Source of the DNA: Kocuria palustris
GTDB taxonomy: Bacteria; Actinomycetota; Actinomycetes; Actinomycetales; Micrococcaceae
Direction of reading: 5' to 3'
DNA: 44,995 nt
Assembly: GCF_007666205.1 (NCBI RefSeq)
Contig: NZ_VDOR01000014.1
Span: forward strand, 1-44,995
Under the pieces are notes generated by a model. That model was given only the letters and a program-made list of their open reading frames with translations. It searched no databases and was not told the DNA's origin. Every line of letters begins with the position of its first letter. Position 1 is the stretch's first letter. This document shows positions 33,819-44,662 of the stretch, piece after piece. A program made the position numbers and the translations under genes.

Positions 33819-34463
33819 TCAGGCGGCCTTCTCCAGGTTCAGCAGCGCCGTCTTGGCCTCCAGCCCGCCGATGTAGCCGCCCAGACCGCCGTCGGCGCGA
33901 AGGACCCGATGGCACGGCACCACGACCGGCAGCGGATTGGTCGCGCACGCCGTGCCGACCGCGCGCACGGCCCTGGGGCTGCCGACGATCTCGGCGACCT
34001 CCTTGTAGGACTGCGTGCGCCCGTATCCGATATGCGGCAAGTGCCCCTGCACGGCCCGGCGGAATCCCGACGACAGCGCGAGGTCCAGGGGCAGATCGAA
34101 GGCGCGCCGGGCCCCGGCGAAGTACTCGTCCAGCTCGGCTGCCGCCGCGTCCAGCCGGCGGGGGGCCGCGAGCACTCGCGGGCTGATCCGCTGGGCCAGC
34201 GACTCCAGCACGGCGTCGAAGCCCTCGCGCTCGAAGGCGACCCGCACGAGACCGGCTTCGGTCGCGGCCAGCAGCAGCGGCCCGAGCGGCGAGTCGATCG
34301 TCCGGTAGGCGATGTCCACGAGCCCGTGCTCCCCGGCCGCCGCGTCCAGACGGGCGCGCAGGTCGATCATCGCGGTGGGCTCGAGCGGGAAGCGGACGGC
34401 GCTCTCGGTGTCCGCGCCGTCGTCGGCCGGACGGCCCGCGCCCGAAGCTGTGCTGATCGTCAT
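33819..34463 (-). CDS. ogt: Methylated-DNA--protein-cysteine methyltransferase
   Basis: Suicide repair protein that moves O6-alkyl groups from guanine to its own Cys. The 214 residues carry an N-terminal domain (IAYRTIDSPLGPLLLAAT near 60-77) and the C-terminal domain with IGYGRTQSYKEVAE and the active site PVVVPCHRVLRADGG near 175-190. Start ATG 34463 overlaps the stop of the sigma-factor gene as ATGA, with GGGAGC upstream; the pair is translationally coupled. Confidence 0.92.
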   Translation of the reverse strand: MTISTASGAGRPADDGADTESAVRFPLEPTAMIDLRARLDAAAGEHGLVDIAYRTIDSPLGPLLLAATEAGLVRVAFEREGFDAVLESLAQRISPRVLAAPRRLDAAAAELDEYFAGARRAFDLPLDLALSSGFRRAVQGHLPHIGYGRTQSYKEVAEIVGSPRAVRAVGTACATNPLPVVVPCHRVLRADGGLGGYIGGLEAKTALLNLEKAA

Positions 34464-34963
34464 CGCGATGCTCCCTTCGTCTCCTCGCCCGCCGTGTACG
34501 TCTGCCGGAGGCGCTTCATGCCGTCGGCCGCCGCGCGGCGCACGGCCTCTGGGCTGCCGCCGATCAGCTCGGCGGTCTCGGCGTGCGGCAGACCGCCGAG
34601 GTAGTGGTAGGCGATCGCGAGCCGCTGACGTTCCGGCAGGGCGGCGACGTCGGCCCACACCTCGGACCCGTCGTCTCCCGGTCTCCCATGCCGCGACGGG
34701 CGCTCCGGGAGGTCGTCGCTGGGGATCGCGTGCCGAGCGTGCGCCCGGGCGATGTCGATCGTCTTGCGGTGGGCGACGCGCACCAGCCAGGCCTCCACGT
34801 TCGTGTCCTCCGGCAGCTCCGGCCAGGACCTCAGTGCGGCCAGGAAGGTCTCGGACCAGGCGTCGTCGGCATCCGCTCCGGGCCCCAGCACGGCGCGGCA
34901 GACCCTCAGCACGGTCGCCCCGTGCCGCTGCACCGCCCGTTCGAATGGCTGCTTCATCGTCAT
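34460..34963 (-). CDS. ECF-like RNA polymerase sigma factor
   Basis: A 167-residue sigma-70 family protein with regions 2 and 4 only. Region 2 includes DDAWSETFLAALRSWPEL near 35-52 and AWLVRVAHRKTIDIAR near 60-75. Region 4 has LPERQRLAIAYHYLGGLPHAETAELIGGS near 111-139. The start could be GTG 34966, ATG 34963 or ATG 34957; no Shine-Dalgarno is clear. Direct overlap with ogt suggests a link to alkylation stress. No anti-sigma gene is adjacent. Confidence 0.8.
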   Translation of the reverse strand: MTMKQPFERAVQRHGATVLRVCRAVLGPGADADDAWSETFLAALRSWPELPEDTNVEAWLVRVAHRKTIDIARAHARHAIPSDDLPERPSRHGRPGDDGSEVWADVAALPERQRLAIAYHYLGGLPHAETAELIGGSPEAVRRAAADGMKRLRQTYTAGEETKGASR

Positions 34964-35240
34964 CACACCGTAGACGCGCGGGCGAGGGGCGATGTGAGGT
35001 CTGGATCCGGATGAGCTGCGGGGCCATGGACCCGGGCGGTTCGGTCCCGGCGGCCCCGGACGGCCGTCCGCACAGGCGTGGATACGACGCGGTCGCGGCG
35101 CCAGCCGGCTAATCGCCCCGGCAACGCTTCACCGACTCGTCGAGTCCTCTGTCAAGGAGGGGGCCCGAGGACAGCTCCGAACCCTGATATCGCTGATGGT
35201 CACCGTGGCAGGGGGGGGCACTGGCCCGATCGGACGGTCA

Positions 35241-35270
35241 GACGTTGAAGCGGAACTCGACCACGTTATG
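35241..35270 (-). other. Possible host gene 3' remnant at the element's left junction
   Basis: Minus-strand codons ending at 35241 read NVVEFRFNV-stop with nearly all G or C in third positions. Just upstream in the same frame the codons turn to A/T-ended ones (CGT GAC GAT AGT TCT). This abrupt change may mark the left attachment junction near 35265-35275. I do not recognise the gene. 34967-35240 shows no supported gene. Confidence 0.35.
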
Positions 35271-35299
35271 GACAGAACTATCGTCACGAGCGCTCAAAC

Positions 35300-35337
35300 T
35301 TGCGCGCCCTTGACAGGCCAGGTAGGATCGCGTCAAG
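35300..35337 (+). promoter_or_regulatory. Possible promoter of the excisionase-polymerase operon
   Basis: TTGCGC (35300-35305) and TAGGAT (35323-35328) with a 17-bp spacer. An inverted repeat CTTGAC/GTCAAG (35309-35314 and 35332-35337) frames the -10 and could be an operator. The start site would give a leader of about 260 bases. Confidence 0.4.
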
Positions 35338-35464
35338 TTCTCGATCACCGCGACCGCAAGGTGTTCGAGAAGGGATCACCCCACGTGGGCTGTGGTGAGC
35401 AGCGCATAGTCAGCACCGGGTAGCGCCGGGAACCACGTCGAGATTGAGATACAGACGACCCGGC

Positions 35465-35500
35465 AGGGAGTGACTTCTCCCGTAAGGCACGGAAGTCCCT
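35465..35500 (+). other. Hairpin in the long leader before the excisionase gene
   Basis: GACTTC (35472-35477) pairs with GAAGTC (35492-35497), and flanking AGGG/CCCT extend the stem. It lies in a roughly 250-base stretch (35340-35590) that has no ORF but several GC stems, so a structured leader, origin or other cis element is possible. Confidence 0.3.
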
Positions 35501-35544
35501 CAGGGCCCAGTGGAGCATCGCGCACGGCGACCGGGAAAGTAGCC

Positions 35545-35593
35545 GGACAACTATTCCCCCGTCTCCGGACAGTTCAAGCTGTCTGGAGTTGTC
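35545..35593. promoter_or_regulatory. Cluster of four GACARYT half-sites
   Basis: GACAACT at 35546-35552, GACAGTT at 35568-35574, and on the other strand GACAGCT and GACAACT in 35577-35593. The middle pair forms CCGGACAG-6-CTGTCTGG (one mismatch). It directly precedes the excisionase ATG and is likely a regulator's operator. Confidence 0.5.
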
Positions 35594-35899
35594 ATGGGGT
35601 ACTCCCCGCCTCCCTCGTCCGACCTCACCCACTATCTCAACCTCACCGATGCCGTCGAACTTGGCTTCGGCGCGTATCAGACCCTTCGGCGATACATTGC
35701 CCAGGGCAAGCTTCCTGCGGTCAAAGTTGGAGGCCGCATCAAGGTTCTGCGGTCTGACCTTAATGCCCTCGCGGTCCCAAAGCGACAGCCCACCTTCGAG
35801 GAGGTCGAGGCCGCCGCAGAACGTCTCGCCAGCTCCGCTCCCCCGCTGAGCGACGCCCAGGTCCGTCGCCTCAGCGCGATCTTCGGCGGTGCGGCATGA
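35594..35899 (+). CDS. xis: Excisionase-type helix-turn-helix protein
   Basis: A 101-residue DNA-binding protein of the MerR-like excisionase type (HTH_17): LNLTDAVELGFGAYQTLRRYIAQGKLPAVKVGG at about residues 15-47, then KVLRSDLNAL. The C-terminal tail (EEVEAAAERLASSAPPLSDAQVRRL) is common beside actinobacterial integrative elements. It may direct the serine recombinase to excision or regulate the operon. GGAG lies 5 bases before the ATG. Its stop overlaps the polymerase start as ATGA. Confidence 0.8.
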   Translation: MGYSPPPSSDLTHYLNLTDAVELGFGAYQTLRRYIAQGKLPAVKVGGRIKVLRSDLNALAVPKRQPTFEEVEAAAERLASSAPPLSDAQVRRLSAIFGGAA

Positions 35900-38800
35900 G
35901 CGCCGGGCTCGCGTGCACGAAAGACCTCTTCTTCCCGCACGGCACCACTGAAACCCCTGGTAGAACGGCAATGGCGGCAGCGCCGTATGGGGAGCAGCCC
36001 CATGACGCCGCCGCCGCCGATGCTCGCGACCCGGTCGATGCGGCGGGCTGGTCTCGGACAGTGGTGGCAGACTCGGCGACGTCGCGGAAGTACCCGGCCC
36101 AGTTCGAGGTCCTGACTCGTTCAATAGCACGCGGAGCGCGCGGCGCTGCCGGCTTCGGGCAGTACCCCTCGGTGGCCGCGATGTCCACGGATCAGGATTC
36201 CATCGTCATCGGCTTCGACACCGAGTTCGTGACTGTCGATCTGATGGATGCCGACCGTGTATGGGTCGGCGAGGACGAGCACATGGTGCGGAAGATTGTG
36301 TCCTACCAGTTCGCCACGATTGACCCTCTCGATGACTCCCAGCTCCGGCTCTGCGTGGTCATCCCCCGAAGCTACAGGGGGCCGCGCGGCTCTCGTACGG
36401 CGCGGCTGTCCTTCGAGAAGGGCCTTGAGATCGCGATCATGAGCCTGGGTCTTCATGAGCACAGGCTCGCAGTTGGTTGGACTGACAAGGGCGTCTCGGC
36501 GCAGTCTGCCATCGGTGACGACGGCAAGTCCCACCCCTCGGTGTGGTTCAAGCACAGTCCCGAGGGGACGCCCAGGGCGTTGCCGATCACCTTGGTCGCG
36601 CACTACCAGCACGCCGACCTGACTACTTTCGTCGACCGCCGGAAGGCGATCAACGTCTGGAACCAGGCGTATCCCGGTCGGTCGAAGACGCTGTCTGATC
36701 GTGCGGGTTGGGACGGTCGACGTGCCCGGTGGCTGGACGGTCGTGCGCCGGACATTCTCCGCACGGTGATCTCGGCCAGCGCGGGCATGGTGTCGAACAA
36801 GCCCGCCCGCATGGTGCTTTCCGGCGAGAACTGGCGGTGGAAGCTGCCGGTGGAAGTCTCGATCCGCGACACGATGGCGCAGAGCGGTGCTGAGCCGCTC
36901 AAGGCACTCGGTGCGGCGATCGGGGCGCCGAAGCTGGATGTTCCTGGTGACTGGATCACCCGGATGGACGAGTACTTCGACGTGCATCCTGCGGAGTTCC
37001 TCGACTACGCGGCGAATGATGCCGTGATCGCTCTGGAATACGTGAGCCAGCTATACGGCGATCACCGTGCTGTCCCGTTGACCTTGCCCACTGCTGCGGC
37101 GAAGGCGGTGAAGGGCCTTATCCAGGACGAGCTGGGCGAGGGCCGCGACTTCAATACCGTCTTCGGCGGACTCCACAAGGTGACGAAGACCCGCGAGGGT
37201 GCTGCCGGTGTAGACGAGCAGCAGCTCGACTTCTACCGCGTCCGGGCGCTGGAGCCGATCGACGGCGCTGCGGCGACGTGGATCCATGCTGCGGCGATGA
37301 GCTTTCGAGGCGGGTACAACATGTCTGCCGAGCTTGGGCTGTTCGCGCGCGTGACCAGTGACTTCGATCTTCAGTCCTGCTACCCCACGTCCAGTTCGAC
37401 GATTTGGGATGTCGACTACCAGCATCCCGATGGCGTGATTCTGAAGACGGTGAACAACGCCGACCTCACGCTGTCCGACTTCAAGACCCCACTCACGCCG
37501 TTCCTCGGGTTCGTGAGCTTCGAGTTCCCGAGCACGGTCGCGTTCCCTTCGTTGCCGGTTCCGGTCGAGGGGTCGATGGTCTATCCGCTCACAAGCGGTG
37601 GTGCTCGTGGGGTCTGGGCAACCGGTCCCGAGGTCTGGCTCGCCCTCACGCTTGGCGCGACTGTGACCTGTCAGATCGGCCACTTCGGACGGGTCCTCAC
37701 CGATGAGCATGGTGAGCCCTCTCGGCTTCTCCGGGGTGCGTACAAGCAGCTCCTCGATGACCGTGCGCGGGCCAAGGCGGAGTTCGGTGCGAAGTCGTTC
37801 GAGCAGAACGTCCTGAAGCTGATGGCGAACTCTCCCTACGGCAAGCTGGCGCAGGGAGTTATGGGCCAGCGGGGCTGGGATGCCTGGGCGCAGGAACGTG
37901 ATGCGGTCGGCGGGTCCGCGATCACCTCACCCTGGCACGCGTGCATGACTACCGGCCTCGTGCGCGCGGTTCTGCTTGCGACGCTGAACCAGCTTCACAA
38001 CCTGGGCTACAGCACGCCGTCCTGCACTACGGACGGATTCATCACGGATGCCGATCTGGACGTGGTCGACAGCCTCGACCTTTTCGGGCTCGGTCCGATC
38101 TGGCGTGAGTCCCGGCTCGCGCTGACCGGTTCGCAGGGGATGTGGGAGCGCAAGCACCAGCAGACCGACCTGCTCAACATCACTACCCGGGCGAACTTCA
38201 GCCGACAGCCTGCCGGCGTCCTGGCACACGGTGGCTACAAGCTTCCAGAGGGCATCGAGCAGGACAGCCAGGCCGACCGCGACCTCATGTACGAGCTCAT
38301 GGCGAGTCGTGAGGGCGCACTTCCGGTGACGATGAAGGTCTTTCCCTCGGTGCAGGAACTGACCCGCATCGACAAGCGGCTGGACTTCGCGCCGCGCGTG
38401 GTCCACAAGGAGCAGACCATCGAGTTCGACCGAAAGCGCCGCCCCGTCCCCGATGGGATGTCGGTCGACGTCATCGACATCGACGGCGTCCAGCATGAGG
38501 TCGCCCATGTGCACACCGTGCCCTGGGATTCTCCCGAGCAGGCCACGTTGGGGCGTTCGGTCGACCAGGGCCTCAAGGAGTGGGACGACGGCCTCGGCGA
38601 ACCCGTGTGGATTCGCTCCCCCGTTCGGCGGACTGTCGAGCAGTGGAAGGACTACTTTGCGCGGCTCGACGCTCTGCTCGATGAGGACGGTTCGATCGCC
38701 CATGCAGCGCAGCTGGAGCACATCGCCAAAGGCATCGTGATCGCCTTCCGCCAGGAGATCATCGACATCCCGTGGCTCCATCCGGGACGGCCTCTGGCAG

Positions 38801-38979
38801 ACAGGCTCGATGCGTTCGAAGCATTCGGGCTGCCTCGCGTGAAGGAGCGGTTCTGGTCGCACGCCCGGTCGAAGGCCGAGCGCCAGATCGACATCGACCT
38901 GGAGGCGATCCGCCCCTACGTCAAGTGGATGCAGGCGATCGACCCCTTTGACGAGTCGGCTTCTGCTGGCGCTTCGTGA
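35896..38979 (+). CDS. Family-B DNA polymerase, piPolB-like
   Basis: A 1027-residue family-B DNA polymerase with proofreading motifs. ExoI is GFDTEF (D108, E110), ExoII HYQHAD (D241) and ExoIII YAAND (Y371, D375). Polymerase motif A is DLQSCYP (D491), motif B KLMANSPYG (K641-G649) and the Tx2GR-like segment TTGLVR. Motif C reads SCTTDG (D713): the usual first Asp of YxDTDS is Thr711. That loss, and the absence of an obvious terminal-protein interaction motif, recall primer-independent PolBs of pipolins (from memory). The start at 35896 is supported by ATGA overlap with xis; ATG 36181 would remove a 95-residue leader without visible motifs. It probably replicates the element. Confidence 0.85.
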   Translation: MSAGLACTKDLFFPHGTTETPGRTAMAAAPYGEQPHDAAAADARDPVDAAGWSRTVVADSATSRKYPAQFEVLTRSIARGARGAAGFGQYPSVAAMSTDQDSIVIGFDTEFVTVDLMDADRVWVGEDEHMVRKIVSYQFATIDPLDDSQLRLCVVIPRSYRGPRGSRTARLSFEKGLEIAIMSLGLHEHRLAVGWTDKGVSAQSAIGDDGKSHPSVWFKHSPEGTPRALPITLVAHYQHADLTTFVDRRKAINVWNQAYPGRSKTLSDRAGWDGRRARWLDGRAPDILRTVISASAGMVSNKPARMVLSGENWRWKLPVEVSIRDTMAQSGAEPLKALGAAIGAPKLDVPGDWITRMDEYFDVHPAEFLDYAANDAVIALEYVSQLYGDHRAVPLTLPTAAAKAVKGLIQDELGEGRDFNTVFGGLHKVTKTREGAAGVDEQQLDFYRVRALEPIDGAAATWIHAAAMSFRGGYNMSAELGLFARVTSDFDLQSCYPTSSSTIWDVDYQHPDGVILKTVNNADLTLSDFKTPLTPFLGFVSFEFPSTVAFPSLPVPVEGSMVYPLTSGGARGVWATGPEVWLALTLGATVTCQIGHFGRVLTDEHGEPSRLLRGAYKQLLDDRARAKAEFGAKSFEQNVLKLMANSPYGKLAQGVMGQRGWDAWAQERDAVGGSAITSPWHACMTTGLVRAVLLATLNQLHNLGYSTPSCTTDGFITDADLDVVDSLDLFGLGPIWRESRLALTGSQGMWERKHQQTDLLNITTRANFSRQPAGVLAHGGYKLPEGIEQDSQADRDLMYELMASREGALPVTMKVFPSVQELTRIDKRLDFAPRVVHKEQTIEFDRKRRPVPDGMSVDVIDIDGVQHEVAHVHTVPWDSPEQATLGRSVDQGLKEWDDGLGEPVWIRSPVRRTVEQWKDYFARLDALLDEDGSIAHAAQLEHIAKGIVIAFRQEIIDIPWLHPGRPLADRLDAFEAFGLPRVKERFWSHARSKAERQIDIDLEAIRPYVKWMQAIDPFDESASAGAS

Positions 38980-38989
38980 GGTGGTGACG

Positions 38990-39295
38990 ATGAGCTACAG
39001 CCTCGGAGGACTTGCCTTCGCCACCAAGCAGAAAGTCGCCAACCACGCCAGTGCCGTGCTGAACCGAGCGGGGCTCGGGGAGGTCCTGCGCGGTTCCGAT
39101 GAGTCGTTCGCCCGTGACCTCCTCGCCCACCATCCAGAGGCCGACCGCAAGCACGGCGCTGGCGTCCTCTGGATCACCGTCGCCCTCATCCCTGAGTGGG
39201 GCACGAGGAACTTTCTCGTCTTTCGGGAGGACGGGTCGATCGACAACTGGTCGATCAAGAAGTGCATCAACAACTTGCGACCGGAAGGTCACTGA
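38990..39295 (+). CDS. DUF3223 (DCL-domain) protein
   Basis: A 101-residue protein. Residues 30-98 match DUF3223/DCL: RDLLAHHPEADRKHGAGV, then ITVALIPEWGTRNFLVF and REDGSIDNWSIKKCI. The domain is known from plant plastid DCL protein and from the tails of plant RNA polymerases IV and V; bacterial members are uncharacterised. GAGGTGG precedes ATG 38990, which lies 10 bases after the polymerase stop. Confidence 0.75.
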   Translation: MSYSLGGLAFATKQKVANHASAVLNRAGLGEVLRGSDESFARDLLAHHPEADRKHGAGVLWITVALIPEWGTRNFLVFREDGSIDNWSIKKCINNLRPEGH

Positions 39296-39312
39296 ACCGA
39301 AAGGAACTGACC

Positions 39313-39636
39313 ATGAGCAACAAGACCACGACCAATCTCGACGAGCTGATCGATCAGGAGCGCCGCCGAGCGTCCGAGCGCATCGCCAAGCTCAAGCGTG
39401 CTGCCGCCGCCGAGCAGCGCCGCATCGACGAGAAGGTCATCAATCTGCTGCGCGACCAGAGCCCCGATCTCTACGACCGGCTCTCCGAGGAGGCGGCCGC
39501 TACCTTGGAGGCAGAGAAGGCGAAGAGGTCGAGGCGTGCGAAGAAGGCGGCATCGTCTTCGGGGTCGGCGAACGACGGGACTGCCTCGCAGTCCGTCGAT
39601 CCCGAGCATGAGGAGGCGGCACCGTGGAACGGCTGA
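39313..39636 (+). CDS. Small coiled-coil protein of the mob region
   Basis: A 107-residue charged protein: residues 10-75 are predicted helical coiled coil (LIDQERRRASERIAKLKR, VINLLRDQSPDLYDRL), followed by a Ser/Ala/Lys-rich tail. I do not recognise a family; position before mobC suggests a mobilization accessory role. AAAGGAA lies 7 bases before the ATG, and the end overlaps mobC by 13 bases. Confidence 0.7.
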   Translation: MSNKTTTNLDELIDQERRRASERIAKLKRAAAAEQRRIDEKVINLLRDQSPDLYDRLSEEAAATLEAEKAKRSRRAKKAASSSGSANDGTASQSVDPEHEEAAPWNG

Positions 39637-40304
39637 CGGCTCCGATCCGGGACTTGCGTCAGCGTCCCGGGACCCCCTCGCCCGCAGGGAGCGCAGCGAC
39701 CGAGGACGAGGGCCAGCGGTTCTTGGAGGACATGAGCGCCAGCGAAATGTCCGACAAGAACCCTGCTGGCCGTCTTCCGTACGCCCCGGAGAGCGAGCCC
39801 GACTCCCCAGGCAGCGCTGGTCGGGCTCGTGCGGAGGGGTGTGCGGAAGACCCGGCCCTGGCAGCGGAGCTGCACCACGACTCCCAGGTGAACACCGGTC
39901 GTGGTGCTGCGCAGAGGGCAGGGTCGGCCGAGGCTCCGGTGGAGCCTCGGAACAGCCGTCGTCGGGAGGTCTCTCTCGACGTGCGGCTGACGGTGGCTGA
40001 TCGCGATGCGATCCGCCGCCGTGCCCACGTGCTCAGCGTCAAGCCGAGCGCATGGGCTCGTGCCGTCATGCTCGACGCGCTGGACTCGAGGTCCTCGAAG
40101 GTCGATCAGCTGGAGAACAACGCGGGAGTGAAGGAGACTGCGCCTACGTCTCTTGCTCCGGCAGTAGAGCAGCTGCGTCGAGTTGGTGTGAACCTGAACC
40201 AGGCGCTCCGCAAGGATGCTGCCGTCGATGACAGTCTCCTTTACGCGGTGTTGGTTGCGGTGGACGAGGTGCGCGCCTCGCTCGGCGATCGGACACGGAC
40301 ATGA
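39624..40304 (+). CDS. mobC: MobC-like mobilization protein
   Basis: A 226-residue relaxosome accessory protein. A long disordered N-terminal part precedes a ribbon-helix-helix-like domain (SLDVRLTVADRDAIRRRA, near residues 117-134). The MobC signature QLRRVGVNLNQALRK is near 182-196. It would bind oriT and help the relaxase. GTG 39624 lies inside the previous gene; its stop overlaps the relaxase start as ATGA. Confidence 0.8.
   Translation: MERLTAPIRDLRQRPGTPSPAGSAATEDEGQRFLEDMSASEMSDKNPAGRLPYAPESEPDSPGSAGRARAEGCAEDPALAAELHHDSQVNTGRGAAQRAGSAEAPVEPRNSRRREVSLDVRLTVADRDAIRRRAHVLSVKPSAWARAVMLDALDSRSSKVDQLENNAGVKETAPTSLAPAVEQLRRVGVNLNQALRKDAAVDDSLLYAVLVAVDEVRASLGDRTRT
39647..39670. other. Candidate oriT inverted repeat in 5' mobC
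   Basis: CCGGGAC (39647-39653) and GTCCCGG (39664-39670) flank a 10-base centre, followed by a purine-rich run (agggagcgcagcgaccgagg, 39695-39714 approximately). This build resembles nic-site regions upstream of or within mobC in mobilizable elements. No nick site is proven. Confidence 0.3.
39928..39950. other. Perfect hairpin inside mobC
   Basis: A 10-bp perfect stem (39928-39937 with 39941-39950) with a 3-base loop lies in the coding region of the disordered part of mobC. It could be part of oriT or an RNA control element. Confidence 0.35.
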
Positions 40305-41539
40305 GCACCGTGAACGTCCGTCCCTCGACCAACGCTGCAGGAGCCGTTGGGTACATCCTCTACGGGCGTGACCCTGAGGTGCGAAAGGAGCTCATCAAGG
40401 TCGGATCGACGCGTGCAGCCGCGTATGCGATGTCCATGGTCGACGGCGGGACGACCCCGTCGGAGTTCATAGCGTGTGCCGAGGCGCACGCTGCTGTTCA
40501 TGGTCGGACGAACCAGCTTCAGAGCTATGTGCTGGCGTTCCACCCCGACGAGTTCGACGTAACCTCCCAAGCCGAGCTTGAGCGCATCCGGGACGTGGCC
40601 GTTGAACTCGCCGAACGCATGCACAGCGCTGACTACATGGTCGCGGTGCACGCTGACTCTGCCGGAGGCCATGGGCACGCGCACATCCTCGTCATCAACC
40701 ACGACAACCTCACCGGTAAGAGCCTCCAGCGGTACACATCGTGGAAGCACGGACTGCGCCAGCTGAACGACGAGCTGATGGCAGACGAGGGCCTGCGGGT
40801 GCTCCCCGACCCCGCGGAACCGAAGCCCGACTGGGAGCTGCGGCGCGAGGACTTCGCGCCGGGCGGATTCGAGCAGGCCCTCGGGGACAAGGTCTACGAC
40901 GCACTGACCGACTCACGCTCAACGAATCGCGAGGCGTTCGAGCACGTCCTCGCCGGGCACGGGGTCACGCTCGCGGTGACGAACCGCGACGGCTGGAGTT
41001 ACAAGATGCGCCGGGATGACAACGGGAAGCTCGGACGGAAGAAGGCCTCGGCGCTGACACCCGAATTCACAGCCGAAGGTGCTCAAGAGATCTTCGACTA
41101 CCACTCACAGAAGGGACAGGCTCATGGGAGCACTGGACAGGATCAAGCAGGCCGACGAGCAGCAGAAGACTACCGAGCTCCTGGAGAACTTGATCTCACA
41201 GCACGACGCCGACAGGCAGCAGATCGCGAAGCTGACGAACACCGTCGCCGACCTGACCGAGTACGTGAAGGTGATGGACGAGGAGCAGACGATACGGCTG
41301 GATCGCCTGTCGACCTCGCGGCAGCTCGAGCTGCCCTCCACTCTGCCGCTCGACGCCGAGACGAGGAAGCGGCTGAACGAGATCGAGAAGACGCTGAGCG
41401 CCGTCGCGCAGCAGCTGAGCAGCAGCGAGGTCGTGAAGCTGCCCGACGGGTCCTCGGTCACCAGGGCGGACCTGGCCGCATACACGATGACACAGAAGAT
41501 CAGCGAGGAGCTGAAGACGACGACTTCAGCCTCGGCTGA
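40301..41539 (+). CDS. mobA: MobA/VirD2-like relaxase
   Basis: A 412-residue DNA-nicking relaxase. Tyr18 or Tyr21 (AVGYILYGRD) is the likely nucleophile. The metal-binding triad is in VHADSAGGHGHAHI, with H117, H124, H126 and H128. The relaxase domain ends near residue 275. The last 138 codons (from about 41124) are an Arg/Ala/Glu-rich tail read out of phase with the next gene and have poorer third-position G/C than that gene, so the tail may be carried along by overprinting. ATG overlaps mobC. Confidence 0.85.
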   Translation: MSTVNVRPSTNAAGAVGYILYGRDPEVRKELIKVGSTRAAAYAMSMVDGGTTPSEFIACAEAHAAVHGRTNQLQSYVLAFHPDEFDVTSQAELERIRDVAVELAERMHSADYMVAVHADSAGGHGHAHILVINHDNLTGKSLQRYTSWKHGLRQLNDELMADEGLRVLPDPAEPKPDWELRREDFAPGGFEQALGDKVYDALTDSRSTNREAFEHVLAGHGVTLAVTNRDGWSYKMRRDDNGKLGRKKASALTPEFTAEGAQEIFDYHSQKGQAHGSTGQDQAGRRAAEDYRAPGELDLTARRRQAADREADEHRRRPDRVREGDGRGADDTAGSPVDLAAARAALHSAARRRDEEAAERDREDAERRRAAAEQQRGREAARRVLGHQGGPGRIHDDTEDQRGAEDDDFSLG

Positions 41540-42068
41540 CCTCGCCGAGGCCGTGCGCAAGCGCGGCCACGTCCGTATCGACACGGGCAAGCTCACCGAG
41601 CACGCTGTGAAGGTACTCGATGACCGACTTGCAGAGGCTGTCGAGGTTCCCGTCCAGAGGGTCGAGAAGACCGTCGAGGGGCTCGAAGAGCGGGTGGTCA
41701 GGCTCGGCTCCGAGAAGCTCGCCGAGCTTACCGGCCGCGCCCACGAAGTGGTCAGCGCCGTCGGGCGGGCCGAGCGGCGAGTCGAGCGACTCTCGGCGAG
41801 GGTCACCTGGGCGACGGTCGGTCGTATGTGCCTTGCCCTGGTCCCGTTCACCGTCGCGTTCATCATGCTCACGGGGATGGTCGGCGGGATCACGCAGATG
41901 CTCGGCCTCGGACCGCTGCTCGGATGGGCCTGGGACTCCTTCGCCGCCGCGAGTGCCTGGTGGGCGAAGGCACTCATTGCCCTCGCCGCCCTCGGCGGAT
42001 GCGCTCTGTTCGCCTGGCTGCTCTGGTGGCTCGGAAAGAAGCTGTACGAGAGCTACCGCGGTTGGTAG
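41124..42068 (+). CDS. Coiled-coil membrane protein of the mob region (MobB-like position)
   Basis: A 314-residue protein. Residues 1-235 are helical and coiled-coil rich (TELLENLISQHDADRQQIAK, KVLDDRLAEAVEVPVQRVEK). Two hydrophobic segments follow (about 246-262 and 285-305), so the N-terminal part probably sits in the cytoplasm. AAGGGA lies 9 bases before ATG 41124. It overlaps the relaxase frame by 416 bases; its own frame has the stronger G/C third positions. RSF1010 MobB is also a membrane protein encoded within mobA in another frame; homology is not claimed. Confidence 0.75.
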   Translation: MGALDRIKQADEQQKTTELLENLISQHDADRQQIAKLTNTVADLTEYVKVMDEEQTIRLDRLSTSRQLELPSTLPLDAETRKRLNEIEKTLSAVAQQLSSSEVVKLPDGSSVTRADLAAYTMTQKISEELKTTTSASADLAEAVRKRGHVRIDTGKLTEHAVKVLDDRLAEAVEVPVQRVEKTVEGLEERVVRLGSEKLAELTGRAHEVVSAVGRAERRVERLSARVTWATVGRMCLALVPFTVAFIMLTGMVGGITQMLGLGPLLGWAWDSFAAASAWWAKALIALAALGGCALFAWLLWWLGKKLYESYRGW

Positions 42069-42081
42069 TCGGAAGAAAAGT

Positions 42082-42113
42082 GAGTGCCCCGTAGCCGAAG
42101 CTACGGGGCACTC
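42082..42113. terminator. Bidirectional terminator in the element
   Basis: A perfect 13-bp stem (42082-42094 with 42101-42113) and 6-base loop sit between the mob operon and the convergent small gene. Confidence 0.8.
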
Positions 42114-42118
42114 TGAAC

Positions 42119-42325
42119 TCAGTCGACGTCGGGGGCATCGCCGAACAGCTCGGCATCGGTGTCGTAATACCCGAGAAGGTCGCGCTGCTGGCGGATCAGA
42201 CCGACGGTTGCCTTGTGCAGGGCGAGCAGGTCATGGAGGTGAGCCTCCTCATCGCCCATCTCGGGGTTGCCGACCCACCAGCGAAACGATTCGGCGTGGC
42301 TGTAGGCGTTGGACTCAGCACTCAT
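42119..42325 (-). CDS. Small protein of unknown function, 68 residues
   Basis: An acidic 68-residue protein (MSAESNAYSH start; DEEAHLHDLLALHKATVGLI helix; acidic end). No family recognised. GAAGGGA precedes the ATG. It follows ardA by 11 bases and is probably co-transcribed with it. Confidence 0.7.
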   Translation of the reverse strand: MSAESNAYSHAESFRWWVGNPEMGDEEAHLHDLLALHKATVGLIRQQRDLLGYYDTDAELFGDAPDVD

Positions 42326-42336
42326 GATCGTTCCCT

Positions 42337-42891
42337 TCACAGGTCCCTGAAGACGTACACGGAGATCGCGTCGGCTCGGACAACCGTGTAATCGTGTTCG
42401 AGGTCGCGGGTCCAGGCAACCCAGTTGAAGTAACGCAGAAGCTGTTCCGGGGCGTCCTGCGGGATGAGGCCGATCTCCTCGGCGAGGGTCTCGGCGTAGT
42501 CCCGGAAGCTGCCCCACGTGCCGCAGAAGCGCTCTTCGAAGTCGGGAACAGACGGCAGGTCTCCGGTGCCTTCGGCAACGTAGCTACCGGAGGCCACCCA
42601 AGCGCACAGAGCATCGCGCTGATGCTCGGGGACCGCGAGGAGGACACGAGCCCACTCGGCGGCCTCCGACGGACTCATCTCGCCCGAGGCGGGGATGTTC
42701 TCGTGGTCCACGACCCACAGCTCCTCGCATCCAGGGCGCACACGATGAGCGCCGCCGTGGACGTCAGCAAGGGTGACTTCGTCGGCGGACTCGCCCTCGA
42801 ACCACTCGCCGACGAGGCGAGCGTTGTTGTAGCAGGCGAGACAGCCGATCCAGGCTCGGGGCGTGGTATCGGTGTTCGTTCGGGTGGTCAT
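42337..42891 (-). CDS. ardA: ArdA antirestriction protein
   Basis: A 184-residue acidic DNA-mimic protein that blocks type I restriction enzymes when the element enters a new host. The ArdA pattern is seen: RAWIGCLACYNNARLVGEWFE near residues 13-33, EELWVVDHENIP near 57, FEERFCGTWGSFRDYAETLAEE near 120-141 and the YFNWVAWTRDLEHDY end. ATG 42891 has GGAGGAG 8 bases upstream; the longer frame upstream starts without one. Confidence 0.85.
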   Translation of the reverse strand: MTTRTNTDTTPRAWIGCLACYNNARLVGEWFEGESADEVTLADVHGGAHRVRPGCEELWVVDHENIPASGEMSPSEAAEWARVLLAVPEHQRDALCAWVASGSYVAEGTGDLPSVPDFEERFCGTWGSFRDYAETLAEEIGLIPQDAPEQLLRYFNWVAWTRDLEHDYTVVRADAISVYVFRDL

Positions 42892-43028
42892 GGCGGGTCT
42901 CCTCCGTGGTCGAGGAGAGCGGCGGGCGCGACAGGCAGTCGTGCTCGGTGAATCGACGCGCTTACGCCACGTCGCCGCTCTCAAGAGGTCTCCCGGCCAC
43001 GCTCCGCGTGGCTACCCAGCCAGGTGGT

Positions 43029-44585
43029 CTACCTCCAGTCGACGACGACGGACTCGGTCCTGAACCCCTTGCGCCCGCGCGGCTGCGGGAGAAGCGTGAT
43101 CGTGGCGAGGGTGTCGATGGTCTGACGGCGGAGGTCAAGTGACGCTTCCCGGAATGCTGAGGCAGGGTCATCGACGCCCAGGATCGGTGACAGCGCGCCC
43201 GTACGGCCTTGAATGAGCCGTTCGGCCTCCAGCTCCTGGATACGCGCTTCTGCGGCATCCCGTACGCGCTTGAGGTCGCGTGCCTCAATGATCTCGGCAT
43301 CGTAGTCGGCCTCGGCGCGCAGGATGCGCGCTCTCTGGTCGCTGATCGCTGAGTCGATGCCTGCCGTGTGCGGACCGCCGTCTGCGACCTCGACCATTGC
43401 CTTCGCGTCCTTGCGCGCAAGACGCTTGGCGACGACCGTCGTGACGAAGTCGTCGATGGCGGCGCCCGAGCGCACGATGTGCCCCGCGCACTTGTACCCG
43501 CGCGGTGCCCCAGTCACCTTCTTCCCACACGTCTCGCCGGTATCCTCGTCGACGTACCCGCACCGGTAGAGCCCGCTGCCAAGGTGCTTGCGCTTCGTGG
43601 AGCCAGACGTGTTCGTGACGCGCTCGGTGTCGTCGAGGACCTGCTGCGCCTTCCACCATGTCTCATGGTCGACGATCGGTTCCCATTGCCCCCGGATAGG
43701 CTCTCCGGAGTCGTCACGCAGGATCTGTGCCTTCCACATCCGGCGGCGCTTACCGTCAGCCTGAGCAAACTTCGGCGTGTAGGTGCTCAGCGCTGCATAG
43801 CGCGGGTTCCGCAGTATGCCGAGCACGGTCGACGGCGACCACGGTCCGTCCTCGACGATCGGCCGGGGTTCGAGCCCCTGTTTCTCGCGGGCGGCGGCGC
43901 GCTCGACGCTCACCGTATGCGTGTGCTTAGGCAAGGGCGAGAGGCCGTCGATCTTCTCAGAGCCGCTGAGCGCCCGCGCGAGCGAGCGCAACGACTCGGG
44001 GTGCTCGATCCTGGTGAACAGCTCGTAGATCGCCCTCACTGCCTCAGCCTCGTGGAGGATCACTTCGCCGTCTACGGCGTAGCCGAGTGGTCGCATACCC
44101 TTCGGAGCACGACCCTGCATGGCGCGCTGACGCTGGGCGGCGGACTGACGGGCGCTCTTGCGTTCCATCTCAGCACGCGCCACGGCGGCCTTGATACGTG
44201 CATACATGCGCCCACCGTCGGTGGAGAGGTCCGCGTCACCGTTGGCTGTGACGAGGGCGAGTCCGCGCAGCTCGGCGGCGTCGATCCAGTCCTCCAGCTG
44301 TCGGGGCTGTCGGGTGAGCCTGTCGAGGTCGTAGCAGATGATCGCGTCGAACCGTCCGAGCAGGTAGTCCGCAACCATGCGGTCGTAATCCGGACGGATC
44401 GCTGTTCGGTCGGTGGCGCTCTTGGACTGGTCCACGTAGGTCTCGATGACGTCCCAGCGCCGGAACTGGGCGAGGTTCTCGCAGTCCTCGCGCTGGCGGT
44501 CGATGGCGAGCCCGTCCATCTCGCGGTCCTGCGAAATGCGCAGGTAGATGGCTGCCTTACGGGGTGCGATGGAGCGCTCGTTCAT
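43029..44585 (-). CDS. Large serine recombinase (integrase)
   Basis: A 518-residue site-specific recombinase that would integrate and excise the element. The resolvase domain (1-150) has AIYLRISQDREMDGLAIDRQ with catalytic S18 and CYDLDRLTRQPRQLEDW. The recombinase domain (about 170-290) has RPLGYAVDGEVI and the WSPSTVLGILRNPRY block. A zinc ribbon (YRCGYV...TCGKKV...YKCAGH) is at about 340-375, then a coiled coil (about 415-470). A -10 TAGCCT lies 6 bases before the ATG, so it is leaderless. No host-range target is known. Confidence 0.92.
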   Translation of the reverse strand: MNERSIAPRKAAIYLRISQDREMDGLAIDRQREDCENLAQFRRWDVIETYVDQSKSATDRTAIRPDYDRMVADYLLGRFDAIICYDLDRLTRQPRQLEDWIDAAELRGLALVTANGDADLSTDGGRMYARIKAAVARAEMERKSARQSAAQRQRAMQGRAPKGMRPLGYAVDGEVILHEAEAVRAIYELFTRIEHPESLRSLARALSGSEKIDGLSPLPKHTHTVSVERAAAREKQGLEPRPIVEDGPWSPSTVLGILRNPRYAALSTYTPKFAQADGKRRRMWKAQILRDDSGEPIRGQWEPIVDHETWWKAQQVLDDTERVTNTSGSTKRKHLGSGLYRCGYVDEDTGETCGKKVTGAPRGYKCAGHIVRSGAAIDDFVTTVVAKRLARKDAKAMVEVADGGPHTAGIDSAISDQRARILRAEADYDAEIIEARDLKRVRDAAEARIQELEAERLIQGRTGALSPILGVDDPASAFREASLDLRRQTIDTLATITLLPQPRGRKGFRTESVVVDWR

Positions 44586-44591
44586 GAGTCA

Positions 44592-44620
44592 AGGCTACTG
44601 CCAGACATAAGCACTGTCCA
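44592..44620 (-). promoter_or_regulatory. Leaderless promoter of the serine recombinase
   Basis: Minus-strand TGGACA (44615-44620) and TAGCCT (44592-44597) with a 17-bp spacer; only 6 bases separate the -10 from the ATG. Confidence 0.55.
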
Positions 44621-44662
44621 TCACTAATGACGTCTCGCTCGCACCTCATGCCCATAGGACTG

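Follow-up and report, generated by a model that had tools for sequence, protein, structure and literature searches.

The end of the 44,995-nt contig NZ_VDOR01000014.1 of Kocuria palustris, the whole of which is referred to here as the window, probably carries an integrative-mobilizable pipolin, whose primer-independent family B DNA polymerase (piPolB) would supply the replication step of the excised element. This reading draws on the computed family placement of the polymerase, the anatomy of the element, its attachment (att) sites in relatives, exchanges of genes within one slot of related elements and the horizontal spread of the family. New here are the exchange of piPolB, Rep and D5-like genes in this slot and a covarying leader RNA without a match in Rfam. 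The window's own genome is designated G000; C5 is the window contig, and C14 and C11 are other contigs of G000.

All three exonuclease motifs (Exo I, GFDTEF with D108 and E110; Exo II, AHYQHADL with D241; Exo III, YAANDA with D375) as well as motifs A (DLQSCYP, D491), B (KLMANSPYGK) and C (SCTTDGF, for which the phi29 counterpart is YCDTDSI) of the window polymerase can be aligned with those of phi29, PRD1 and E. coli Pol II. Open reading frame (ORF) and alignment thus agree with an earlier interpretation made from the DNA letters, the sequence-only reading, which had recognized a family B polymerase (PolB) with these motifs and motif C SCTTDG at 35896-38979. Its description of motif C as altered holds in comparison to other PolBs but not within piPolBs, where this is the ordinary form: TTDGF is invariant in 42 aligned sequences including that of the window, and D108, E110, D241, D375, D491, K641, T711, T712, D713 and G714 do not vary either. 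The window polymerase has lost the first aspartate of motif C and kept TDG, the motif by which piPolBs are recognized and which occurs in 12 of 12 piPolB rows of the motif alignment (TTDG in 11 of the 12). In an earlier study, piPolBs are described as lacking this aspartate but still being efficient polymerases (PMC7544198). Inactive cargo of a mobilizable element is a very unlikely role for the polymerase: in some relatives the gene looks broken up (three tblastn pieces for L096, two each for L069 and L067), but the catalytic residues are invariant in the 42 sequences, from which interrupted polB loci had been excluded, the window ORF is intact over its full 1027 amino acids (aa), and an intact polB has been kept in the exchanged modules of Corynebacterium xerosis, Rothia and Kocuria varians.

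The phylogenetic tree of the polymerases comprised 66 rows, i.e., 50 relative loci, the window, five named references and ten outgroup rows. For this tree, 61 loci were extracted (59 of the 80 loci described below and two viral loci), and L047, L067, L069, L084, L087, L093, L096, L104, L111, L118 and L123 were omitted as likely near duplicates or interrupted genes. The tree is divided by a branch with an approximate likelihood-ratio test (aLRT) value of 99: eight PolBs of the protein-primed type lie on one side together with T4 gp43 and E. coli Pol II, and on the other are 56 rows, among them two from E. coli and that of the window. The window polymerase fell within a seven-row actinobacterial set (aLRT 100). 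Primer-free synthesis by a piPolB was reportedly assayed in a 2017 paper; of the two E. coli rows, either of which may differ from the assayed strain, L136 lies near tRNA-Leu and the second was chosen by homology. In this quickly built tree, the window polymerase accordingly groups with E. coli-type pipolin polymerases and apart from protein-primed and RNA-primed PolBs, so that the sequence-based result by which the sequence-only reading would have been refuted did not occur. Tree and motifs support its assignment to the piPolB family, together with the E. coli and staphylococcal piPolBs.

An AlphaFold2 model built with the 42 sequences (predicted local distance difference test 82.2, predicted template modelling score 0.80) had phi29 DNA polymerase as its nearest fold in the PDB, which occupied the first six of the 50 PDB rows listed (top two matches with E 4.7e-11 and 5.0e-11 and template modelling scores of 0.59 and 0.65 by target and 0.35 and 0.39 by query). 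TPR1 and TPR2 insertions are a feature of piPolBs. As no piPolB is named among these 50 rows, phi29 polymerase may simply be the solved PolB closest to such a layout. Scanning the 1027-aa protein against Pfam and NCBIfam gave no match at E up to 1, and PHROGs yielded three weak DNA polymerase matches (best E 1.3e-6). These matches and the phi29-like fold would fit a protein-primed PolB that stems from a linear element or virus and whose motif C has degenerated, an identity that we regard as extremely improbable and that is rejected by tree and motifs: the protein has neither the YxDTDS motif C nor a position on the phi29/PRD1 side of the tree, TTDG is common to the window and E. coli piPolBs on their side of the branch at 99, tblastn gave no match at E 1e-3 in 50,697 phage records, and no terminal protein occurred among the Pfam, PHROG and NCBIfam matches of the scanned neighbours.

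Relatives were found in four of 148 genomes searched, which were the window's own and three of Kocuria, whose matched parts were 70, 44 and 43% identical, and polymerases 98-99% identical to that of the window occur in C. xerosis and Rothia. At E 1e-3, tblastn matched 46 plasmid records, including Staphylococcus epidermidis pSE-12228-03 (E 2e-37). A scan with one genome per species confirmed 102 relatives, and the best 80 of these 102 loci were used. The DNA of a relative from Enterobacter (L122) matched 299 of 5426 E. coli genomes, and in 236 the match covered 80% or more of the query; one of these matches is L136. Thirty Pseudosulfitobacter plasmid records match the polymerase query, and in the one record opened, NZ_CP087043.1 (L009), the piPolB-like gene is split by an IS66-family insertion. 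A 34-kb viral-collection contig, IMGVR_UViG_3300006674_000090 (L127, L128), contains two stretches that resemble piPolB, with 30 and 28% identity to the query.

The position of polB upstream of mobC and the relaxase gene is occupied by other replication genes in sister elements. One such element, from Kocuria G021, encodes a serine integrase and a 473-aa Rep, in which PF01719 Rep_OBD and PF00910 helicase domains were recognized, followed by MobC, a relaxase and a membrane-type protein. A second lies in the window's own genome (G000:C11, 385.6-391.8 kb; L177), and its integrase, Rep, MobC and relaxase share 99-100% identity with the G021 proteins. Both share the gene order of the window element and homologous MobC, relaxase and membrane-type proteins, and differ from it by a Rep with origin-binding and helicase domains where the window has piPolB. 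PF01719 Reps are HUH nickases. The contents of the slot were surveyed in 297 genomes of the order, 25 of which had the window's relaxase at E 1e-10, resulting in 27 regions with 29 relaxase modules. The slot held PolB in 3 modules, a homologue of the G021 Rep in 14 (three of them at 32-33% identity), a protein with PF00910 only in 2 (L165, L167) and a D5-like protein in 1 (L182). The 9 modules left unassigned (L158 twice, the first copy in L159, L160, L163, L166, L169, L179 and L180, the last being cut by a contig end) were kept in the denominator, and L060, L064 and L048 already represent the contigs of the three PolB regions, which are hence not independent of the one-genome-per-species scan. 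In a relaxase tree of 20 chosen rows (11 PolB, 5 Rep, 1 D5-like, 3 others), the PolB element of Arthrobacter gandavensis fell into a six-row set with the five Rep elements (68-76% identity, aLRT 100), within which the tree gives no firm branching order, and the PolB element of Brachybacterium EE-P12 paired with the D5-like element (61%, aLRT 99). This mixing indicates at least two exchanges of slot content, in one direction or the other, and supports piPolB as an interchangeable replication cassette; the exchanges also lend strength to the idea that the element may be self-replicating.

The biological role of piPolB was called still unclear in 2022, and the same article links the enzyme to damage tolerance, citing a 2017 paper (PMC9710591). 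The 9 of 29 related relaxase modules without a recognised replication gene, which suggest that a filled slot may not be needed, would fit a polymerase that does not replicate the element and acts instead in damage tolerance or in the filling of gaps. Against such a role, the same slot holds Rep or D5-like genes in sister elements, exchanged on related mobilization modules, and no Rep is listed on two staphylococcal piPolB plasmids (8 and 7 genes, several of them hypothetical, in an incomplete table). We consider damage tolerance as the main function unlikely and favour replication of the element by piPolB.

The polymerase gene belongs to a run on the forward strand, with the order attL, leader RNA, xis, polB, DUF3223 gene, P9 gene, mobC, relaxase gene and membrane-type protein gene, and is followed by P10, ardA and the large serine integrase gene on the reverse strand (Table 1). 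Profile matches thus agree with the neighbours named by the sequence-only reading, i.e., xis, DUF3223, MobC and relaxase in one strand run and a serine recombinase close by. The stop codon of xis overlaps the polB start codon, and the G+C content, mostly 0.69-0.75 in the first 35 kb, falls to 0.64-0.67 thereafter. With an integrase, a relaxase and att sites, the element has several features of integrative mobilizable elements, and large serine integrase, Xis, MobC, relaxase and ArdA together suggest this classification; as an integrated mobile element with piPolB it also falls under the definition of pipolins, which may be integrated or plasmids. In a scan that covered ten element ORFs of C5 and three of C14, but not the DNA between these contigs, no conjugation pore or coupling families were found. 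The 3' end of the relaxase gene and the membrane-type gene overlap by about 400 bp (41124-41539) in different frames, likewise in C. xerosis and K. varians, in which the membrane-type protein is 88-90% identical.

Table 1. Features of the pipolin at the end of the window (positions in the window unless a contig is named).
Feature	Position	Strand	Remarks
attL	35239..35270		ychF 3'-end half site TCAGACGTTGAAGCGGAACT and element half site CGACCACGTTATGGACAG, joined; 25-bp core with one mismatch to intact ychF 3' ends (five Kocuria genomes)
Leader RNA, type I, conserved and structured	35308..35588	+	12 predicted helices; final 11-bp hairpin directly before xis
xis, excisionase-like helix-turn-helix protein	35594..35899	+	PF12728 E 3.5e-8, over cut-off; TIGR01764 E 1.2e-5, below cut-off
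polB, primer-independent-type family B DNA polymerase (piPolB)	35896..38979	+	1027 aa, ATG start; assigned by motifs, tree, fold
DUF3223 protein	38990..39295	+	PF11523 E 1.1e-14; ORF from 38948, start 38990 inferred
P9, small charged protein between polB and mobC	39313..39636	+	ORF from 39196, start inferred
MobC/NikA-like accessory protein	39624..40304	+	PF21983 E 6.9e-7
Relaxase	40301..41539	+	PF03432 E 9.3e-12
Coiled-coil/membrane-type protein (judged by eye)	41124..42068	+	ORF 41079-42068, start inferred; MobB/DUF334-like by position only; no Pfam family over cut-off
P10, small conserved protein	42119..42325	-	Start inferred; no Pfam match
ArdA antirestriction protein	42337..42891	-	PF07275 E 1.8e-24; ORF from 42984, start inferred
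Large serine integrase	43029..44585	-	518 aa; PF00239 and PF07508; phrog_95 integrase E 6.2e-80
Right part, cut by contig end	44586..44995		ychF side probably at G000:C14 7.6-13.7 kb; contig join inferred
ychF side, probable contents	G000:C14 7.6-13.7 kb		attR, type III restriction-modification genes, DUF3644

The integration site was deduced from relatives. Five Kocuria genomes (L033-L036, L039) have an intact ychF 3' end that matches the 25-bp core at 35241 except for a single mismatch, and those of the five within the 148-genome search gave no PolB match. The same attL junction with differing left halves is present in Rothia, Arachnia, C. xerosis and K. rhizophila. In the window's own genome ychF is located on contig C14 and ends in VVEFRTGLTSGGRK, where intact ends translate as VVEFRFNV; type III restriction-modification (R-M) genes and a DUF3644 gene lie 3' of it, and C5 and C14 would join within the element. 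K. rhizophila G011 has on a single contig attL, the integrase gene, a type III R-M-like pair (27 and 33% identical to the type III R-M pair), an SNF2 helicase gene and ychF ending in VVEFRTGLTSGGKK, with about 17.7 kb from the core to the ychF stop codon, so that R-M genes occur on the ychF side in two Kocuria copies. In Arachnia (L049), attL and an integrase gene adjoining ychF are likewise on one contig, with 12.8 kb between the core copies, and in Kocuria G007, where the insertion was read at its attL end, a 511-kb contig holds attL and, about 17 kb away, ychF. Judged from these junctions, relatives are inserted at the 3' end of ychF and change the predicted C-terminus of YchF. The mobilizable pipolin proposed by the sequence-only reading is supported by this target of the serine integrase in relatives and by the relaxase genes.

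At the left end of the G007 pipolin a second att-like core is present 482 bp to the left of attL (L080:8345 and 8827), perhaps a remnant of a neighbouring insertion. Downstream of ychF, G021 (2298637-2333458 of contig C1; L154, L155) has att-like cores at about 4.1 and 9.4 kb and a Rep-type element at 20-26 kb, and ychF looks like an insertion hotspot. An attempt to link the left flank of C5 to ychF by synteny with G021 failed.

The family spreads between families of Actinobacteria, as judged from nearly identical polymerases of C. xerosis and Rothia in recombined backbones. The window matches C. xerosis with 94.6% identity over 35663-44634, Rothia endophytica with 98.2% over 35238-40506 and K. 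varians with 91.2% over 39289-44634, the K. varians PolB protein being only 39% identical. This pattern indicates that the leader-xis part, polB and the mobilization-integration part have been exchanged separately. A 9605-bp contig of K. varians (G005:C32, L013) holds little more or less than the element, reaching from near attL to just past the integrase gene; it has no end overlap that would indicate circularity or a plasmid form. The 80 loci were divided into 27 from Actinobacteria, a group taken here without the Coriobacteriia, and 53 others, and homologues were counted at E 1e-5, with short contigs and the 10-kb flank depressing the counts. The 27 loci had Xis in 19 cases, relaxase in 18, P9 in 16, MobC in 15, large serine integrase, ArdA and the membrane-type protein in 14 each, DUF3223 in 9 and a small serine recombinase in 8. 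Among the 53 others, a large serine integrase occurred in 3, a small serine recombinase in 9 and type III R-M genes in 2.

The 281-nt leader, aligned in five sequences, contained 16 pairs with two-sided changes, a number reached by none of 500 shuffles; slid versions of the structure gave at most 7 such pairs, a control that is lenient as the structure had been predicted from the same five-sequence alignment. The covariation term of RNAalifold was small (-0.52 kcal/mol), the pair counts carrying the signal, and leaders folded singly gave weak structures (z -1.97 and -1.13). A covariance model built from the 3' 125 nt retrieved L048/L181 (E 5e-15) and L063 (E 8e-14), all absent from the model's alignment, directly before xis. 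At E 0.01 it gave no match in any region with a Rep-type element, including G021 and that on C11, a further difference between these and the window element. Using cmscan against Rfam, no match to the leader was obtained in five loci (including window positions 34396-40476), where the sole match was to malK-III, within the polB of G011 and below the gathering score. An origin specific to polB was rejected for the leader region, as the type I leader is also found ahead of a different type of PolB (L096) and in the D5-like element L182 and the C. xerosis locus L052 combines the window's polB with a different, type II leader. This type II leader of about 440 nt is found at the same place in L012:8701-9140, L013/L059, L052, L058 and L057, is 94-95% identical between genera and gave no supported structure.

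E. coli pipolins are described as integrated at tRNA-Leu and equipped with tyrosine recombinases (PMC7385651). They resemble the window element in being integrated, in the homologous polymerase with TTDG in motif C and, in one of them, in nearby R-M genes, whereas the window element differs by its large serine integrase, ychF site, MobC, relaxase and ArdA. The plasmids pSE-12228-03 of S. epidermidis and p3GD01 of S. warneri both encode piPolB, a 'recombinase family protein', relaxase and DUF334, and p3GD01 also has an annotated MobC; they are free circular plasmids with a short recombinase gene between polB and the mob genes, unlike the window element with its integrated form, Xis, large integrase, ArdA and DUF3223. 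Pipolins in Actinobacteria and plasmid pipolins with relaxases and resolvases have been reported (PMC9710591, for Actinobacteria in the legend of Fig. 3). The suggestion of the sequence-only reading that the composition may be new is hence only partly right, as piPolB, recombinase, relaxase and DUF334 are already combined on the staphylococcal plasmids and actinobacterial pipolins are in print. In the pipolin literature, covered mostly below full-text depth, no account was found of the leader RNA, of the exchange among Rep, D5 and piPolB or of the branch with a serine integrase at ychF, and the term 'serine recombinase' did not occur in the portion checked for it. A 2024 paper in Nucleic Acids Research reportedly describes pipolins of Limosilactobacillus, Pseudosulfitobacter and Staphylococcus, mobilizable ones and plasmids, as defence islands and may also cover Actinobacteria. 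For integrative mobilizable elements, a 2017 review heads its section on the excised element 'An Unexplored World', and 'DNA polymerase' is absent from the portion of it that was consulted (PMC5704250).

In the proposed cycle, the large serine integrase would insert the circular element into the last codons of ychF, creating a hybrid C-terminus, and Xis would aid excision. The leader RNA precedes the gene run from xis through polB, the DUF3223 and P9 genes, mobC and the relaxase gene to the membrane-type protein gene. After excision, piPolB may start synthesis, without an RNA or protein primer, on the single strand that arises from nicking by the relaxase or from transfer, a replication step equivalent to that of the PF01719-type Rep or D5-like helicase of sister elements. 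MobC and relaxase would move the element to new hosts through the conjugation machinery of a helper, and ArdA would protect it from restriction.

Besides the link to damage tolerance and the unassigned slots, several observations weigh against this interpretation. The polymerase tree was calculated by a quick method, for which the program warned of long outgroup branches and uneven letter make-up, and one long outgroup branch joined adjacent to the large group. Xis, MobC and relaxase were found in none of the 53 other loci, and 9 of the 27 actinobacterial loci lack a relaxase homologue, four of these being shorter than 11 kb. In the window's own genome the element is split over two contigs, whose junction would have to be as proposed, and in G021, the best match to the left flank, the flanking ogt/sigma genes are about 34 kb from ychF and in opposite orientation.

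Going further, it is about an even chance that piPolB is one interchangeable cassette that performs, in a self-priming manner, the job of Rep or D5-like proteins, probably by copying the transferred strand in the recipient, and that the leader represents a new RNA family controlling the gene run. The sister elements carrying PolB or Rep on related mobilization modules constitute a natural experiment on the role of piPolB.

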